Shown here: positions 15,002 through 34,842 of the stretch, piece after piece
Layout: the number at the start of each line of letters is the position of its first letter
Position numbering within the stretch: the first letter of the stretch is position 1
NCBI RefSeq assembly: GCF_014529625.1
Contig: NZ_CP076039.1
Location: 3,844,001-3,908,000, forward strand
Reading direction: 5' to 3'
Origin: Candidatus Pelagisphaera phototrophica
GTDB taxonomy: Bacteria > Verrucomicrobiota > Verrucomicrobiia > Opitutales > Opitutaceae
Length of the DNA: 64,000 nucleotides
Notes under the pieces: generated by a model
The model's input: the letters and a program-made list of their open reading frames with translations, nothing else
Database searches by the model: none
What the model was told of the DNA's origin: nothing
Made by a program: the position numbers and the translations under genes

Positions 15002-15203
15002 CCTATCCGCATAGATTCATATTCCTCTTAAGCAACTGAATTCGGTAACAATGCCCAATCATCGACTGAAAGTCCAAAAACAAAAATCCCATTCAAATAG
15101 GGTTTCAGAGATTTTTGGATACATAATTCTCAATTCCGGCAAGCTACTTGAGATTCGACAAATCCCTATCAATCTGCTCAAGTACACCTCAATCCCGCAG
15201 CCC

Positions 15204-16192
<989 letters not shown>

Positions 16193-16266: not shown

Positions 16267-17331
16267 TTACTCAGCGTACTTATCAACCGTTAGGTCGTCG
16301 CAGTCGTACTCCAAGAAGGGGTCGCTGGTCAGCACGGAGGTATTCTGATGAGTGTGCGGCTGGGCTAGGTACACGGGATCGACAACCGTGTACTCACGCT
16401 TGAGTTCATTACCTGCTTCATTGAGATAAAAACGTTCGGTGATTTCCATTTGCTCTCCGTGTCTAATAGCCGGACCCGGTCTTCCTCCTGGGGCCCGTAG
16501 GAATCCGGGACCGAAACCCTTCGTTCTGACAACCAGGGTGTCTCCTTCCCATTTGCCAACCGAATAGCCTCTTACGCTGGGTTCGATCGTTTCGGGAAAT
16601 TCACCGTCCAGGTGAATGGTCCGGACCACATCCATAAATCCATAGGTGATCACAATCTTGGTCTCAGACTGCTCGAACTTATTAACCATTTGATCAAAAT
16701 TGTAGTCCAGTATGATATTGGTGGGCTCGCACATGAACCTTGGATTGTCCGCTTCCGTGTAGTTAACTCCTTCTTCCCTCGCGATCTGAGACATCACATA
16801 GCGAGGAGGCCTAGCGCCACGACCTCTGCCTCTTCCTCTTGGGGGCTCGGTCCAGTTACCTTCAAGATTGGGCGTACCGTCTTCGCGTTTAAGTTCGCGT
16901 TCCCCGCTCACCACTTGCCCCGCCTCGTTGAGCGAGTCGCGGCGGTTCACTATTTTGCCATCCGCAAAGGTGATGGTATGAGCATAGCAGGTTTTCGAGT
17001 CCCGCCGGTCCGGCGATCCGTTGACAGTGATTTTCGTTCCTAGAGCAAACATCTCCTCAGTCCAGCCCCTTCGCTTTAACAAGCTTCCCGAACGCAATTC
17101 ACATCGCCATTGTTCCTCTTCCCCAGCTTCGTTGATAGCCTTGAAGTAGACGTAACCATGCGGATTCACAAAACGAACGCGATTCACGGTACCGGTCACT
17201 GTCACATTCTGATCAAGGTTGAATTGTCCCGTGACTCCGTGATGCGAAAATACAGTCGATGAGGTCAAAATTGACGCACACACAAATACCAAAGCGCCAG
17301 CGAGATAGGATTTATTTATAGTCATGGTCAT
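16267..17331 (-). CDS. DUF6152-family secreted protein, paralogue 1
   Basis: 354 residues. The signal peptide (about 1-29) ends in a small residue directly before His-His-Gly, so the mature protein probably begins HHGVTGQF. An N-terminal DUF6152 domain (about 30-145; VTGTVNRVRFVNPHGYVYF, WRCELRSGSLLKRRGW) is joined by an Arg/Gly/Pro-rich linker (RGRGRGARPP) to a C-terminal domain with GKWEGDTLVVRTKGF and EITERFYLNEAGNELKREY. Two longer paralogues lie in tandem at 29998-32495. The function is unknown. The N-terminal His pair and the later conserved residues could bind a metal, which is inference. This copy stands alone, divergent from the malonyl-CoA synthetase gene. Confidence 0.8.
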   Translation of the reverse strand: MTMTINKSYLAGALVFVCASILTSSTVFSHHGVTGQFNLDQNVTVTGTVNRVRFVNPHGYVYFKAINEAGEEEQWRCELRSGSLLKRRGWTEEMFALGTKITVNGSPDRRDSKTCYAHTITFADGKIVNRRDSLNEAGQVVSGERELKREDGTPNLEGNWTEPPRGRGRGRGARPPRYVMSQIAREEGVNYTEADNPRFMCEPTNIILDYNFDQMVNKFEQSETKIVITYGFMDVVRTIHLDGEFPETIEPSVRGYSVGKWEGDTLVVRTKGFGPGFLRAPGGRPGPAIRHGEQMEITERFYLNEAGNELKREYTVVDPVYLAQPHTHQNTSVLTSDPFLEYDCDDLTVDKYAE

Positions 17332-29997: not shown

Positions 29998-31224
29998 ATG
30001 GCTAGGACTATCAAAAAATCATTCATGGCCTGCATGCTTGCATCGCTGTGCAGTATTGTACTTTTACCCCCGACCACCATGGCGCACCACGGTGTCAGCG
30101 GGCAATTTGACCTAGAGCAGGTTTTGACGGTGACCGGAGTCGTGAACCGCGTTCGCTTCGTAAATCCACATGCTTACGTCTATTTCATGGTCACCAACGC
30201 TCAAGGTGAAGAAGAACAATGGCGATGCGAATTGCGCTCAGGCAGCTTGCTCAAACGCAAAGGCTGGACCACGGACATGTTTGCAATCGGTTCGACCATC
30301 AAGATATTTGGATCACCGGACCGAAGGGATCCCAAGACAGTCTATACCGAGACTATCACATTTGAGGACGGCACGGTAATCGCCCGCTATGATGCGTTGG
30401 ACGATTCCGGAAATACAATTGCGGGCGAGCGGGAGCTCACACGTGAAGATGGTACACCGAATCTGGCAGGGAACTGGTCTGAACCGGTAAGAAACAGTCC
30501 TCCCCCCCAGGGCCCACGCCCGAGATCGGCCCCGCCCGAAGGCATTAATCTCGCAAACGACGGCTCTCCCCAACGAGTAGACTTTCCACCCCCTACAGGA
30601 AACCAAGCGAGAGCCGGTGGCCCAGGAGGCGGACGGCCAGAGGGTGGACGACCTGGAGGCGGACGACCAGGAGGTGGCAATCGTCCGCCGCAGTATGCAC
30701 TAACGGATATCGCGCGTGCGGAAGCTGGGAACTTTACTGCAGACCAAAATCCTCGATTCAACTGTGAACCTACCAACATCATATTTGACTACGCTTTTGA
30801 TCAGATGTTGAACAAAATCGATCAAACCGGATCTGCGATTGTGTTCTCTTACGGCTTTATGGATCTGGTACGCGTCATTCACCTTATCGGAGACTTCCCC
30901 GATGAAATTGAACCCAGCGTAGCCGGCTACTCTATCGGCAAATGGGAGGAAGATACATTGGTCGTTCATACAAAAGGCTTTAAACCAGGTTTTCTTCAGG
31001 CCCCGGGAGGGCGGGCTAGAGGAGCTGTCCGACACGGTGACCAAATGGAGATCACCGAGCGCTTTACCATGAGTGAGGACGGCAATGAACTCACCCGTGA
31101 ATACACCGTGGTAGACCCTGTCTATTTGGCTAAACCCTATTCGCACAGAAATTCGTCATTGTATACGACCGACCCTTTTATTCCGTACGAATGCGAAGAG
31201 TTGAAGGACGATAGGCAGCAGTAA
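29998..31224 (+). CDS. DUF6152-family secreted protein, paralogue 2
   Basis: 408 residues. The signal peptide (1-29, ending TTMA) is followed directly by HHGVSGQF. The DUF6152 domain (about 30-150) contains VNRVRFVNPHAYVYF and WRCELRSGSLLKRKGW. A long low-complexity linker (about 165-240) follows, rich in Pro, Gly and Arg with a GGRP repeat. The C-terminal domain has GKWEEDTLVVHTKGF and MEITERFTMSEDGNELTREY and ends in a Cys near FIPYECEEL. It is probably periplasmic. First of a six-gene run ending with a HupE-type permease and an anchor protein. The function is unknown; metal binding by the N-terminal His pair is a hypothesis. Confidence 0.82.
   Translation: MARTIKKSFMACMLASLCSIVLLPPTTMAHHGVSGQFDLEQVLTVTGVVNRVRFVNPHAYVYFMVTNAQGEEEQWRCELRSGSLLKRKGWTTDMFAIGSTIKIFGSPDRRDPKTVYTETITFEDGTVIARYDALDDSGNTIAGERELTREDGTPNLAGNWSEPVRNSPPPQGPRPRSAPPEGINLANDGSPQRVDFPPPTGNQARAGGPGGGRPEGGRPGGGRPGGGNRPPQYALTDIARAEAGNFTADQNPRFNCEPTNIIFDYAFDQMLNKIDQTGSAIVFSYGFMDLVRVIHLIGDFPDEIEPSVAGYSIGKWEEDTLVVHTKGFKPGFLQAPGGRARGAVRHGDQMEITERFTMSEDGNELTREYTVVDPVYLAKPYSHRNSSLYTTDPFIPYECEELKDDRQQ
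30625..30678 (+). repeat. Short tandem coding repeat (GGRP units)
   Basis: Four imperfect 12-15-bp units encode GGRPEGGRPGGGRPGGG within the linker of DUF6152 paralogue 2. Paralogues 1 and 3 have shorter, different linkers at the same place, so the linker length is variable, probably through slippage. Confidence 0.6.
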
Positions 31225-31322
31225 GCGGGATTACTATTCGTATCCGCTATTCAGCTACGTTTCTACTTTATGCTGCACACAGCGGTTTTTAATCCTAAGA
31301 ATATGTACCAGGATGAAGGACG

Positions 31323-32495
31323 ATGACCCATAAAAGAAATCTGATCATCGGCATGCTTGCATCTTTGATCAGCATTGTCATCCTACCCTCTAACGCCGTA
31401 GCTCACCACGGTATTACTGGACAGTTCGACCTTGAACAAGTGCTGAGAGTGAAGGGTGTCGTGAATCGTGTTCGATTTGTGAACCCACATGCTTATGTCT
31501 ATTTCAAGGTCAAGAATGACCAGGGCGATGAAGAGCAATGGCGTTGCGAATTGCGCTCTGGGAGCTTGCTCAAACGCAAAGGTTGGTCTGTCGACATGTT
31601 TGCCATTGGCAGCACAATCGAGATATTTGGATCACCAGATCGTCGCGATCCTAAAACGGTCTATACCGAGACCATTACCTTTGAAGATGGTACGGTAGTC
31701 GCTCGCTATCAGGCATTAGACGATTCAGGAAATGTCATCCTTGGAGAGCGTGAACTCAAACGTGAGGATGGAACCCCAAATTTGGCTGGAAATTGGTCAG
31801 AGCCAGTGCGAGACGGCCCGCCACCGCGAGATCCCACACCAAGGTCCGAGGGCCCGCCACCGGAGCTGAGTCTCACAATTGACGGATCCCCACAACGAAT
31901 AGAGATTCTTCCACCCGTGGGAATTCAAGGAGTGCCGGGGATTGGAAGTGGTAGGCCGCGACCACCACTGTATGCTCCAACAGAAATTGGGCACGCCGAA
32001 GCCAGCAAATATTCAGGAGAGGACAATCCACGATTCAATTGCGAGCCAACCAACATCCTCTTTGATTACGCTTTTGATCAGATGATGAACAAGATCGAGC
32101 AAACGGGTTCCACGATTGTCATCACCTATGGGTTTATGGATCTGTTGCGCACCATCCATTTAATTGGAGATTTCCCGGAAAACATCGAACCCAATGTTGC
32201 CGGGTACTCCGTTGGCAAATGGGAAGGTGACACCTTGGTCGTCCACACAAAAGGCTTTAAGCCAGGTTTTCTTCAAGCCCCTAGAGGGGCCAGAGCCGGC
32301 GTCCGGCACGGTAACCAAATGGTAATTACAGAACGATTCAACATGAGTGAGGATGGCATGGAGTTGAAACGTGAATATACGGTCGTTGATCCCGTTTATT
32401 TGGCAGAGCCTTACTCAGGTTCTAATTCGTCCCTTTATACAACCGAAAAATTCATTCCTTACGAATGCGAAGAGTTAAAGGACGAGACACAATAA
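31323..32495 (+). CDS. DUF6152-family secreted protein, paralogue 3
   Basis: 390 residues, a tandem copy of the upstream gene 98 bp away; the two are alike at most positions outside the linker. The signal peptide ends SNAVA before HHGITGQF. The DUF6152 domain has VNRVRFVNPHAYVYF, the linker is Pro-rich (PPPRDPTPRSEGPPPE) and lacks the GGRP repeat, and the C-terminal domain has GKWEGDTLVVHTKGF and MVITERFNMSEDG. Conservation of the mature HHG start in all three copies despite diverged signal peptides suggests it matters. It is followed 41 bp later by the first four-helix membrane gene. Confidence 0.82.
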   Translation: MTHKRNLIIGMLASLISIVILPSNAVAHHGITGQFDLEQVLRVKGVVNRVRFVNPHAYVYFKVKNDQGDEEQWRCELRSGSLLKRKGWSVDMFAIGSTIEIFGSPDRRDPKTVYTETITFEDGTVVARYQALDDSGNVILGERELKREDGTPNLAGNWSEPVRDGPPPRDPTPRSEGPPPELSLTIDGSPQRIEILPPVGIQGVPGIGSGRPRPPLYAPTEIGHAEASKYSGEDNPRFNCEPTNILFDYAFDQMMNKIEQTGSTIVITYGFMDLLRTIHLIGDFPENIEPNVAGYSVGKWEGDTLVVHTKGFKPGFLQAPRGARAGVRHGNQMVITERFNMSEDGMELKREYTVVDPVYLAEPYSGSNSSLYTTEKFIPYECEELKDETQ

Positions 32496-32536
32496 CCGAG
32501 ACATTCGTCGATAATTGGATAATAAACCAATTTTGA

Positions 32537-32995
32537 ATGGAAATACTGTGGTGGATTGAAGATTCCTGGCTTGGGATGCTTGTTTCGAGCTCCCAGTGGG
32601 GTTACCCGATCGTGTTATCTCTGCATGCGGTCGGTATGGCTGTATTGGTCGGAGTTTCATTGATTCTCGCCATGCGCGTACTTGGTTTTGGTAACGCTAT
32701 TCCAGTCACCGCATTGGCTCCATTCTGGACCATAGCTCAAGTAGGCTTCGTGGTAAATTTATTATCCGGCGCCGCCTTGTTTATGGGCAACGCATCTGTG
32801 CTGTTTTTCAATACGGCTTTTCATATCAAACTGATCGGAGTCGTCGTGGGCTTGGCACTTACCTGGTGGCTGGTAAAAATCTGCATACGCGGAACCGGTG
32901 AGGTCTCCACTTCTCACAAAGGATTTGCCGGAGTCGCTCTACTCGCTTGGGCCGTGGCACTCGTCGCGGGCCGTCTCATCGGCTATTTTTCATAG
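32537..32995 (+). CDS. Four-helix membrane protein (DUF6644-like), copy A
   Basis: 152 residues with four predicted transmembrane helices (about 20-42, 62-84, 92-112, 128-149). A His lies in the first helix (LSLHAVGMAVLVG) and another at FHIKLIG, and charged residues bound the helices. The layout resembles DUF6644 and small cytochrome-b-like four-helix proteins, but no heme ligand pair can be assigned. It is adjacent to a second copy 10 bp downstream, so the two may form a complex. The role in the run is unknown. Confidence 0.7.
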   Translation: MEILWWIEDSWLGMLVSSSQWGYPIVLSLHAVGMAVLVGVSLILAMRVLGFGNAIPVTALAPFWTIAQVGFVVNLLSGAALFMGNASVLFFNTAFHIKLIGVVVGLALTWWLVKICIRGTGEVSTSHKGFAGVALLAWAVALVAGRLIGYFS

Positions 32996-33005
32996 GAACG
33001 GACAA

Positions 33006-33488
33006 ATGGATTCGCTTATAGAATGGCTAAATAGCACCGCTCTCAATGACTTCATCATGTCAACCGCCTGGCTATGGCCAACGCTGGAGATCGCACATTT
33101 TTTCGGTCTGTGCCTTCTTCTCGGAGCGTTGATCGTATCCGACCTTCGGATGATGGGGGTGGCACGTGCTGTACCGCTTGTCTTGATTGAAAAGTTCATG
33201 ATCTTGGCTGTCATTGGCTTCTCGATCAACGCAATCACCGGCATCTTTTTCATTGTTGGGGATCCCGACCGTTACTTGCCCAATATCGCCTTTCGCATCA
33301 AAATGGTACTGATCGTGATCGCAGGCCTCAATGTCGGCTATTACTTGTTGCGAGTAAGATTCCAGGTCCTGAGTGGGAGTAAAGACACAGAACTATCTTC
33401 CGGCGGTCGCCTGATAGCAGCTCTATCGTTAGTGCTTTGGACCAGCATAATAGTGCTGGGGCGAATTATTCCCTATGTCGAAGACTAG
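33006..33488 (+). CDS. Four-helix membrane protein (DUF6644-like), copy B
   Basis: 160 residues from ATG at 33006; an earlier in-frame start at 32898 would overlap copy A heavily and adds a poor leader. Four transmembrane helices, with IAHFFGLCLLLGALIVSDLRMMG matching the first-helix His region of copy A and FRIKMVLIVIAGL matching FHIKLIGVVVGLAL, so the two are diverged duplicates. Its 3' end overlaps the HupE-like gene by 14 bp, which suggests coupled translation and a shared function. Confidence 0.72.
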   Translation: MDSLIEWLNSTALNDFIMSTAWLWPTLEIAHFFGLCLLLGALIVSDLRMMGVARAVPLVLIEKFMILAVIGFSINAITGIFFIVGDPDRYLPNIAFRIKMVLIVIAGLNVGYYLLRVRFQVLSGSKDTELSSGGRLIAALSLVLWTSIIVLGRIIPYVED

Positions 33489-34170
33489 CCAAACAGTTTG
33501 GCTGCGCTATGGGCGTTGGGTAATCCTGTCGGCAATTGGGGTTATCCTTGCGAGCGAGAGTTGGGCGCATGGGGTTGCCAGTTCAGATCAAGGATTTCTA
33601 GCGAGGGCGGAAGGCGTGCATGCAGGCCCTTTCCTCTATTTGGGTGCTAAGCACATGGTCACCGGTTACGACCACCTTCTCTATCTAGCCGGGGTCATCT
33701 TCTATTTACGGGCGCTGACCGACGTGGTAAAGTTTGTGAGCCTTTTCGCGCTCGGCCACTCTATCACGCTACTGTTCGGAGTGTTGTCTGGCATAAATAT
33801 CAGTCCCTATTTCATCGATGCGATCATCGGACTTTCAATCTGCTACAAGGCTCTGGAAAATTTGGGAACGATTCGATTTATCGACCCAAAACTTGCGGTA
33901 TTTGGATTTGGGCTGGCCCATGGTTTTGGCCTTTCAACGAAATTGCAGGATCTAGCACTATCTCGAGATGGGCTCATTGCCAATATGATCAACTTTAACA
34001 TCGGAGTTGAGATCGGCCAAGTAATTGGGCTGGTGATTCTATTCATCGGTTTATCCTGGCTTCGGGAGCGCCAAGACTTCGATACTGTTTCCCGTAATGC
34101 CAACGTAGCGTTGTTCGGTGCCGGTTTGGTATTTTTTGGCCTGCAAATGACGGGGCTTTTCGTAAACTAG
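33475..34170 (+). CDS. HupE/UreJ-type membrane permease
   Basis: 231 residues. A signal-like first segment ends ESWA before HG, then about six transmembrane helices. The metal-permease signature is visible: KHMVTGYDHLLYLAGV (H-x4-G-x-D-H), FALGHSITLLFG and GLAHGFGLSTKL. HupE/UreJ proteins are linked to nickel (and cobalt) uptake for hydrogenase and urease. No hydrogenase or urease gene is seen here, so nickel is only one option. It overlaps copy B by 14 bp and is 9 bp from the anchor gene. Confidence 0.84.
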   Translation: MSKTSQTVWLRYGRWVILSAIGVILASESWAHGVASSDQGFLARAEGVHAGPFLYLGAKHMVTGYDHLLYLAGVIFYLRALTDVVKFVSLFALGHSITLLFGVLSGINISPYFIDAIIGLSICYKALENLGTIRFIDPKLAVFGFGLAHGFGLSTKLQDLALSRDGLIANMINFNIGVEIGQVIGLVILFIGLSWLRERQDFDTVSRNANVALFGAGLVFFGLQMTGLFVN

Positions 34171-34179
34171 TCTCGTATT

Positions 34180-34842
34180 ATGAAAAAAGAAAAATCATGG
34201 ACTACCCCAACAAAGCTTGGCCTGGCTGCGGCTGGGGCCGCCGTGTTGCTGATCGCCGTTATCTTGCCAGCGGAGTACGGCATCGACCCTACCGGGTTCG
34301 GGCGGCTTACGAGTATTAGCGCCTTGTCTGAAAATGTCCCAGCCACAGCCCGCGATTTCGGTCAGACCATGGTATTCAACATCGAGGAATACGACCCCGC
34401 CGCAGAGCAGATCGAACAATCGATCCAAGGACTCATTCGTCTAGAGGAAAAACCGTTCCTTACAGAAACGATCGATCTAAAGATTGAGGACTTTGGGGAA
34501 ATCGAACATAAGTTTATCATGCCAGCCGATACCACCCTACTCTACTCTTGGGAGGTGCTGGACGCCAAAGGCGATGGGGTTTTCTTTGAATTTCACGGTC
34601 ATCCATCCAGTGCCGATGCGCCGAACTATCCAGAAGGTTTTGAACAAGCCTACAGTAAGGGTGAAGGCACTACGCAAAGTGGATCGTTCACTACTCCGTT
34701 TCCTGGCTACCACGGCTGGTACCTCATGAATCTTGAAGAAGGTCCCATTACCGTCCGCTTGCAGGTCAGCGGCTATTGGCAGGAACACAAGGAAATGTAC
34801 CGTGCAGTCGACGGTAAAGTACTGAAGGTAGTCGATTTTTAG
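34180..34842 (+). CDS. Membrane-anchored domain protein next to the HupE-like permease
   Basis: 220 residues. One N-terminal transmembrane helix (about 13-31) is followed by an acidic linker and a beta-rich domain (about 95-215) with His residues in FEFHGHPSS and GYHGWYLMN. No enzyme family is recognised; it resembles the 'transmembrane anchor' proteins I recall beside HupE-type genes. The two His-containing loops could form a metal site on the outer face of the membrane. It is the last gene of the run, converging with the sulfatase at 35018. Confidence 0.6.
   Translation: MKKEKSWTTPTKLGLAAAGAAVLLIAVILPAEYGIDPTGFGRLTSISALSENVPATARDFGQTMVFNIEEYDPAAEQIEQSIQGLIRLEEKPFLTETIDLKIEDFGEIEHKFIMPADTTLLYSWEVLDAKGDGVFFEFHGHPSSADAPNYPEGFEQAYSKGEGTTQSGSFTTPFPGYHGWYLMNLEEGPITVRLQVSGYWQEHKEMYRAVDGKVLKVVDF

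Follow-up and report, generated by a model that had tools for sequence, protein, structure and literature searches.

Candidatus Pelagisphaera phototrophica (Opitutales) encodes, within a 64,000-nucleotide stretch of its genome (the window; contig NZ_CP076039.1, positions 3,844,001 to 3,908,000, with window coordinates used below), a run of six plus-strand genes (29998-34842) for two DUF6152 proteins (A1 and A2), two DUF6644-like membrane proteins (B1 and B2), a HupE/UreJ_2 permease and a membrane anchor protein. In the Opitutales, this operon joins two modules that are found separately elsewhere, one consisting of DUF6152 and DUF6644-like genes and the other of HupE and the anchor. We tentatively interpret it, with a probability of roughly 0.45, as a system of the cell envelope that captures and relays metal, with Ni(II) or Co(II) as the most likely ion and Cu(II) as a less likely one. 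Capture of the metal by DUF6152 and its hand-over to the membrane proteins are suggested by the metal-linked contexts of HupE-anchor pairs elsewhere, by another N-terminal-histidine protein (DUF4198) that heads such a pair in Novosphingobium, and by the three histidines that are a hallmark of DUF6152.

Conservation of the six-gene run

The source genome is a single contig of 4.09 Mb. The genes of the run are separated by short intergenic gaps (98, 41, 10, -14 and 9 bp), which bears out an earlier sequence-only reading of this DNA, including the 14 bp overlap (33475-33488) that it had reported between the second DUF6644-like gene and HupE. A1 (29998-31224, 408 aa) and A2 (31323-32495, 390 aa) belong to Pfam family DUF6152 (PF19649; 72.7 and 72.2 bits, cut-off 27), and their predicted signal peptides end in TMA and AVA, respectively, directly before HHG, with the His1 codons at 30085 and 31404. 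B1 (32537-32995, 152 aa) and B2 (33006-33488, 160 aa, its start set at the ATG at 33006) score 15.6 and 22.3 bits with Pfam DUF6644 (PF20349), below the cut-off of 27, and are called DUF6644-like because their homology to this family is clear from sequence comparison although the Pfam score falls short. The permease (33475-34170, 231 aa) is a member of HupE_UreJ_2 (PF13795; 156.4 bits, cut-off 24.5) with a predicted mature N-terminal histidine (SWA before HGV, codon 33568) and an HMVTGYDH motif. The anchor (34180-34842, 220 aa), for which no Pfam match was found, contains one N-terminal hydrophobic segment followed by a modelled GOLD-like beta-sandwich, whose HG and HGW loops each carry an invariant histidine.

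A contig search with the four DUF6152 paralogues of the genome yielded 12 loci. The order DUF6152 - B1 - B2 - HupE - anchor, whose conservation the sequence-only reading had proposed to examine, is kept in five Opitutales loci from five metagenome-assembled genomes (MAGs). Three of these (L020, L021 and L022) contain the complete run with two DUF6152 genes each, the first of which is cut by the contig end in L020; L023 also has two DUF6152 genes and ends inside HupE, and L024 has a single one. Per-gene identities to the best counterparts in these five loci range from 71 to 98%, and the 14 bp overlap of B2 and HupE is identical in all five. A2, B1, B2, HupE and the anchor are under purifying selection, with nonsynonymous to synonymous rate ratios (dN/dS) of 0.065-0.15 where dS was measurable and, in the same codon comparison, pN/pS of 0.14-0.23 where dS was saturated. 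In five more Opitutales loci (L025-L029), the available DNA contains a DUF6152 gene but not the remainder of the run; two of these loci (L026 and L027) are uninformative on this point, as their contigs stop at or soon after the DUF6152 gene.

DUF6152 was found in the Alpha-, Beta- and Gammaproteobacteria as well as in the Opitutales, and is patchy within the group studied here. In the phylum sample it was detected in the source genome alone (1/288 genomes, four matches), and among 100 genomes of the family one other matched A2, in the C-terminal part only and with a stop, while four Opitutales MAGs reached by other searches carry two to four copies. MAGs of Opitutales and Opitutaceae, which belong to the Verrucomicrobiota, are the closest named relatives of the source genome. 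The anchor was found in 5/288 genomes of the phylum, namely the source genome, three same-order genomes in which it occurs together with HupE, and G059, where the match is weak (1e-4) and HupE is absent from the 3.2 kb stretch. A pairing confined to close relatives, which would have refuted the sequence-only reading, applies to the complete six-gene run, found only in Opitutales among the loci recovered, but to neither of its halves, as described below.

DUF6152 proteins and their histidines

All four DUF6152 copies of the genome have HHG directly after a signal-like stretch. A total of 82 distinct DUF6152 sequences were gathered, one of which (reading MAHHG) was left out because its contig ends within the N-terminus. 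In 81/81 of the remaining proteins HH follows a hydrophobic signal-like stretch, and the -3/-1 rule, which predicts the cut from sequence, is satisfied at HH in 80 of them, whereas HH at an allowed cut occurs in 1/192 other signal-like genes; signal-like stretches were recognized by a crude rule rather than by SignalP, and 192/203 other genes pass it. The mature HHG-type start predicted in the sequence-only reading is thus a trait of the family as judged from its sequences, and homologues without HH were not found among them, with the limitation that the collecting profile included the HH and Pro-His columns and favours sequences retaining them. A Pro-His pair at mature position 25-34, present in 81/81 proteins, supplies a candidate for the third ligand that the sequence-only reading had proposed to look for. 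Among 75 complete sequences, HH is preceded by Ala in 71, Ser in three and Gly in one and is followed by Ser, Gly or Ala in 74, and 70 have NPH. When the 75 sequences are cut at HH, which makes both of these columns conserved by construction, and aligned with weighting, P28, H29 and G69 are the only other fully conserved positions. This pattern points to DUF6152 as a candidate undescribed family of metal-binding proteins.

An AlphaFold2 model of mature A2 (18 sequences, mean predicted local distance difference test (pLDDT) 62) has strands at residues 14-25, 30-37, 43-49, 71-79 and 85-93 and a helix at 53-58, which corresponds to an oligonucleotide/oligosaccharide-binding (OB) fold. Its best VIA match is an SSB protein (Z 9.1, 2.4 Å, 79 aligned residues), and the first Foldseek rows are lysyl-tRNA synthetases (E 6e-4); comparison of the DUF6152 profile with sequences of solved structures gave no matches. 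According to the modelled strand positions, the turn that joins OB strands 1 and 2 would hold the conserved histidine of Pro-His. Both A1 and A2 are two-domain proteins, in which the OB-like domain is followed by a Gly/Pro-rich linker and a second beta-rich domain (CTD) without Pfam match; the sequence-only description was right about the HHG start and overlooked the second domain. The CTD, which comprises eight strands in the A2 model and approximately residues 216-408 of A1 by similarity to A2, may be lipocalin-like, as Foldseek matched the long model to CRABP2 chains (E 0.007-0.016), although its output does not give the region aligned. The A1 linker (~30600-30690) is a Gly/Arg/Pro-rich repeat, GGGRPGGGRPGGG, the length of which varies among paralogues and relatives.

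Two further DUF6152 genes of the genome lie outside the run. A3 (16267-17331, minus strand) is a third paralogue with a CTD and a VFS-HHG start, and the fourth copy is located beyond the window at 1.70 Mb of the contig (C1). The latter is directly preceded by a short open reading frame (ORF; L001 1089-1427) that, judged by eye, is perhaps a remnant of a sulfatase N-terminus.

DUF6644-like proteins, HupE and anchor

The homology of B1 and B2 to DUF6644 is clear at the sequence level: tblastn of B2 against annotated DUF6644 genes gave values down to 7e-20, and the DUF6644 model matches 27/27 aligned DUF6644-like proteins at E <= 5. Invariant residues in these 27 proteins are H31, G79, K99, G152 and R153. 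DUF6152 stands beside a DUF6644-like gene in 13/13 plasmid loci, which were hand-picked for spread (11 from DUF6644 hits in 33 and 69 records, some of which were chosen with knowledge of a DUF6152 hit in them, and two, L093 and L098, from DUF6152 hits). In 11 of these loci, on plasmids of Paracoccus, two Sinorhizobium, Azospirillum, Comamonas, Caballeronia, Cupriavidus, Indioceanicola, Rhizobium, Achromobacter and Microvirga, DUF6152 is located directly upstream of the DUF6644-like gene on the same strand, and the plasmids of Novosphingobium humi and Sphingobium contain two tandem DUF6644 genes next to a DUF6152-CTD cassette of opposite orientation. Within the class of the gammaproteobacterium G364, the DUF6644 model detected G364 alone among 143 genomes, a count limited by the sub-threshold scores that the same model gives B1 and B2 themselves.

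Profile comparison with hhalign placed DUF6644 nearer to HemJ (42% over 53 columns) than to CopD (10.8%, or about 11%), both values being weak. Controls for HemJ and CopD gave 1.35% and 0.23% with reversed alignments and at most 0.64% and 0.36% in 20 column shuffles each, and HupE gave 0.08%. As HemJ and CopD reached only 2.7% against each other in the same run, though the CopD model finds HemJ genes, this test is erratic and offers a hint only that DUF6644 could be kin to membrane proteins of the HemJ/CopD type. No matches to the DUF6644 profile were found among sequences of solved structures. In one locus (L082 112-1131), a weak DUF2231-like domain is fused to a DUF6644-like domain and followed by a second DUF6644-like gene.

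Relatives of the anchor were identified on 322 plasmid records, and HupE lies directly upstream of the anchor in the three same-order genomes and in 9/9 plasmid loci hand-picked for spread out of these records. These pairs mostly occur in nickel/cobalt or heavy-metal resistance contexts, which agrees with the nickel/cobalt link of HupE assumed in the sequence-only reading. They are found near CusA/CzcA resistance-nodulation-division (RND) pumps (L010 and L012), near major facilitator superfamily (MFS) transporters together with a metal-sensing repressor (L011, L086 and L089, with DmeF also in L086), near a nickel/cobalt efflux transporter and a repressor (L087), 5-8 kb from ncrA/B/C as called by AMRFinder (L085) and ~5 kb from a heavy-metal P-type ATPase (L088). 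In the ninth locus (L090, Novosphingobium ES2-1), HupE and the anchor follow a DUF4198 gene, whose product is predicted to begin with HAIW when mature; neither a DUF6644-like nor a DUF6152 gene was found in this stretch.

An allowed cut right before His is present in 17/17 HupE proteins (15 by pattern; L086 and L087 by eye), compared with 23/192 other genes in which one His directly follows such a site. The two His-containing loops that had been noted in the anchor hold up in its relatives, as both histidines are invariant in 18/18 sequences. The soluble part of the anchor was modelled from seven sequences at a pLDDT of 52, and the top five VIA matches of this low-confidence model are p24/TMED GOLD domains (Z 13.0, 12.4, 12.0, 11.1 and 10.8; best match 2.4 Å over 97 aligned residues). 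The anchor profile returned no matches among sequences of solved structures.

In L010, L085 and L087, HupE is preceded by genes for small His-rich proteins, and small secreted proteins with an allowed cut before His are encoded in L012 (8463-8795, DUF6488, HADHG) and L090 (6753-7136, unnamed, HGSM). Two related Gammaproteobacteria, G364 (locus L030) and G365 (locus L031), encode HupE directly before DUF6152 and a CTD, and an anchor gene lies on the opposite strand at a distance of 2-3 kb. These loci were rejected as independent proof of linkage since their HupE belongs to a different type, scoring 80 bits versus 189-223 bits for the anchor-paired HupEs of plasmids; with 91 DUF6152 matches, a HupE neighbour is roughly estimated to arise by chance in a few percent of cases. 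The Pseudoalteromonas plasmid locus L088 (3139-6830) contains an annotated DUF3604 - peptidyl-prolyl isomerase - HupE cassette, whose HupE is also of a different type, and L030 (3949-9885) seems to hold the same cassette.

In the source genome, the run is flanked by genes for an HMGL-like protein, a nitroreductase, two sulfatases, a 3-keto-disaccharide hydrolase and a GSDH/cytochrome c protein, and HupE_UreJ_2 has a single match genome-wide. Alignment of the region upstream of the run revealed no clear common motif, and the numbers of promoter-like (6 versus 6.1 expected) and terminator-like sites (11 versus 6.1, standard deviation 2.8) are not convincing. A Gfo/Idh/MocA-type oxidoreductase gene elsewhere in the window (15051-16192, plus strand) seems frameshifted by pseudogenization or sequence error, with a Tat-like signal (SRRQF) in ORF 15051-15527 and the remainder in another frame from 15269.

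Proposed metal relay and rival explanations

In the proposed relay, DUF6152 proteins would be exported and processed to a mature form beginning with His-His. The amine and imidazole of His1, the histidine of the conserved Pro-His (~position 29) and perhaps His2 would then hold one metal ion, reminiscent of a histidine brace (defined as in PMC10952591). The loaded protein would dock on the two DUF6644-like proteins, with which its genes are paired, and also on HupE, which has a predicted mature N-terminal histidine and the HMVTGYDH motif of its own, and the GOLD-like anchor might serve as a periplasmic subunit of the permease, next to which it is encoded. As the run encodes no efflux pump, we lean towards scavenging or import as the direction of transport.

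Several systems with related components have been described. Anglerases Ang-1 and Ang-2 are N-terminal-histidine domains fused to HupE/UreJ-2, for which metal capture and uptake were proposed (PMC12537917). As predicted here, a periplasmic domain with a mature N-terminal histidine works with a HupE/UreJ-2 (PF13795) permease in these proteins. However, the anglerase domain is fused to its permease and that of Ang-1 is immunoglobulin-like, whereas the histidine protein of the run is a separate gene product with an OB-like fold, two N-terminal histidines, an additional CTD and DUF6644-like partners, and the 231-aa HupE leaves only ~20 residues between its histidine and the Pfam match and is not an anglerase fusion. 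The sequence-only reading had called the system undescribed, which holds for DUF6152 and DUF6644, as neither is named in the literature searched, a collection lacking most subscription journals, but not for the idea itself, which anglerases anticipate. A crystallized DUF4198 protein, a 13-strand beta-sandwich, holds Ni through His1 and His18 (PMC12537917). Its relative in L090 resembles DUF6152 as a secreted protein with a predicted mature histidine that heads a HupE-anchor run, while family and fold differ from those of DUF6152. Pairs of HupE and 'transmembrane anchor protein' on resistance plasmids share families, order and the predicted HupE histidine start with the run, and their anchors share PAEYxIDPTG-type and HGW motifs with its anchor; unlike these pairs, the run lacks an efflux pump or repressor and has DUF6152 and DUF6644-like genes at its head. 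Similarly to CopC-CopD and YcnI-YcnJ copper uptake (PMC12154828), a soluble N-terminal-histidine protein is combined with a membrane partner, but the run contains no CopC or CopD Pfam match and is not assigned to that system.

Several observations weigh against a dedicated metal relay. Neither a metal-responsive regulator, for which the sequence-only reading had suggested looking, nor a pump was found among the genes at 25.6-39.4 kb. Urease-alpha and NiFe-hydrogenase are unmatched in the whole genome, in which positive controls did match; a search for Ni-SOD also gave no match, as did its controls. Ni, Co or Cu genes were not seen near the DUF6152-DUF6644 pairs on plasmids (L096 and L097 being unannotated), whose flanks hold mostly catabolic genes; L093 and L095 also have siderophore transport genes nearby, and L101 adjoins a TonB receptor gene. 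Two of the three G364 DUF6644 loci lack DUF6152 within 3.4 kb, the third having a DUF6152-like gene. Residues 1-6 of the A2 model, which include the proposed ligands at the N-terminus, have pLDDT values below 50. The Gammaproteobacteria G364 and G365 contain 91 and 98 DUF6152 matches in genomes of 3.6 and 3.7 Mb, too many copies for a dedicated nickel carrier, and among 50 other genes near 27 G364 DUF6152 genes (omitting DUF6152, CTD, genes below 100 aa and those with low caller scores) every Pfam family occurs at most twice, suggesting that DUF6152-CTD is not tied to one pathway in this genome. A role of DUF6152 as uptake carrier is unproven, considering that HupE-anchor homologues belong to resistance operons, that the nickel enzymes named above are unmatched, and that the two Gammaproteobacteria hold so many copies, in varied contexts in the one sampled.

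In a rather unlikely but serious alternative, the run is an accessory of Ni/Co tolerance, DUF6152 and the anchor buffering periplasmic metal and HupE acting in sequestration rather than nutrition. The RND pumps, MFS transporters, nickel/cobalt efflux genes and metal-sensing repressors next to plasmid HupE-anchor homologues fit detoxification, as do the unmatched urease-alpha and NiFe-hydrogenase. In addition, a gene with a HupE/UreJ domain is the most Ni-up-regulated gene of Sphingobium ba1, for which the authors suggest accumulation or sequestration (PMC5557971). However, the run is not a Ni/Co resistance operon of the ncr or RND type, as no efflux pump or metal-sensing repressor was found among the genes at 25.6-39.4 kb, and the three same-order genomes with resistance-type HupE and anchor (L006, L007 and L008) encode a small protein with a His-rich stretch before the pair, without DUF6152 match.

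We consider it unlikely, though worth stating, that DUF6152 represents an undescribed secreted metalloprotein family with a three-His centre (His1, His2 and Pro-His ~29) on an OB fold, which together with a beta-barrel partner would form metal-dependent enzymes or metal-cofactor carriers, with more than 90 copies in some Gammaproteobacteria, and which the Opitutales operon would wire to a metal supply via DUF6644-like proteins and a HupE-GOLD permease. A further rival explanation, in which DUF6152 and CTD form a histidine-brace-like enzyme centre supplied with metal by the DUF6644-like proteins and HupE-anchor, the paralogues serving different substrates, appears distinctly unlikely. It would account for the three conserved histidines, the very large paralogue expansions of G364 and G365 and the spread of the G364 copies over many contexts. 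In the G364 stretches sampled, the CTD is fused in 5/27 DUF6152 genes and adjoins on the same strand in 17 of the other 22 (gene calls in L030 and L062-L084 are from an in-house codon-usage caller), and pairs of DUF6152 and a separate CTD gene also occur on Croceibacterium, Novosphingobium humi and Sphingobium plasmids. The CRABP2 match that would support a beta-barrel partner is weak, however, and the 11 plasmid loci with DUF6152 directly before DUF6644 show no CTD gene; we know of no activity of DUF6152 and CTD. A non-metal origin, with DUF6152, CTD and DUF6644 as an envelope cassette for another ligand (e.g., a lipophilic one) that HupE-anchor joined by chance in an Opitutales ancestor, is equally improbable, for although DUF6152-DUF6644 pairs adjoin phenylacetate, choline-sulfate, TRAP and other catabolic genes and HupE linkage was found only in Opitutales save for the weak case of L030/L031, the three histidines are hard to explain without metal and the B2-HupE overlap has stayed identical at 71-98% protein identity.

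Metal binding by DUF6152, if borne out, would provide HupE/UreJ-2 permeases with a carrier encoded apart from them and would identify the 'transmembrane anchor protein' found on many plasmids as a GOLD-like HupE partner. G364 and G365, with their 91 and 98 matches, raise the question of what use a single bacterium makes of so many DUF6152 copies. Should DUF6152 bind metal, it would constitute a testable class of N-terminal-histidine metalloproteins with a fold unlike the beta-sandwich cases described in PMC12537917.

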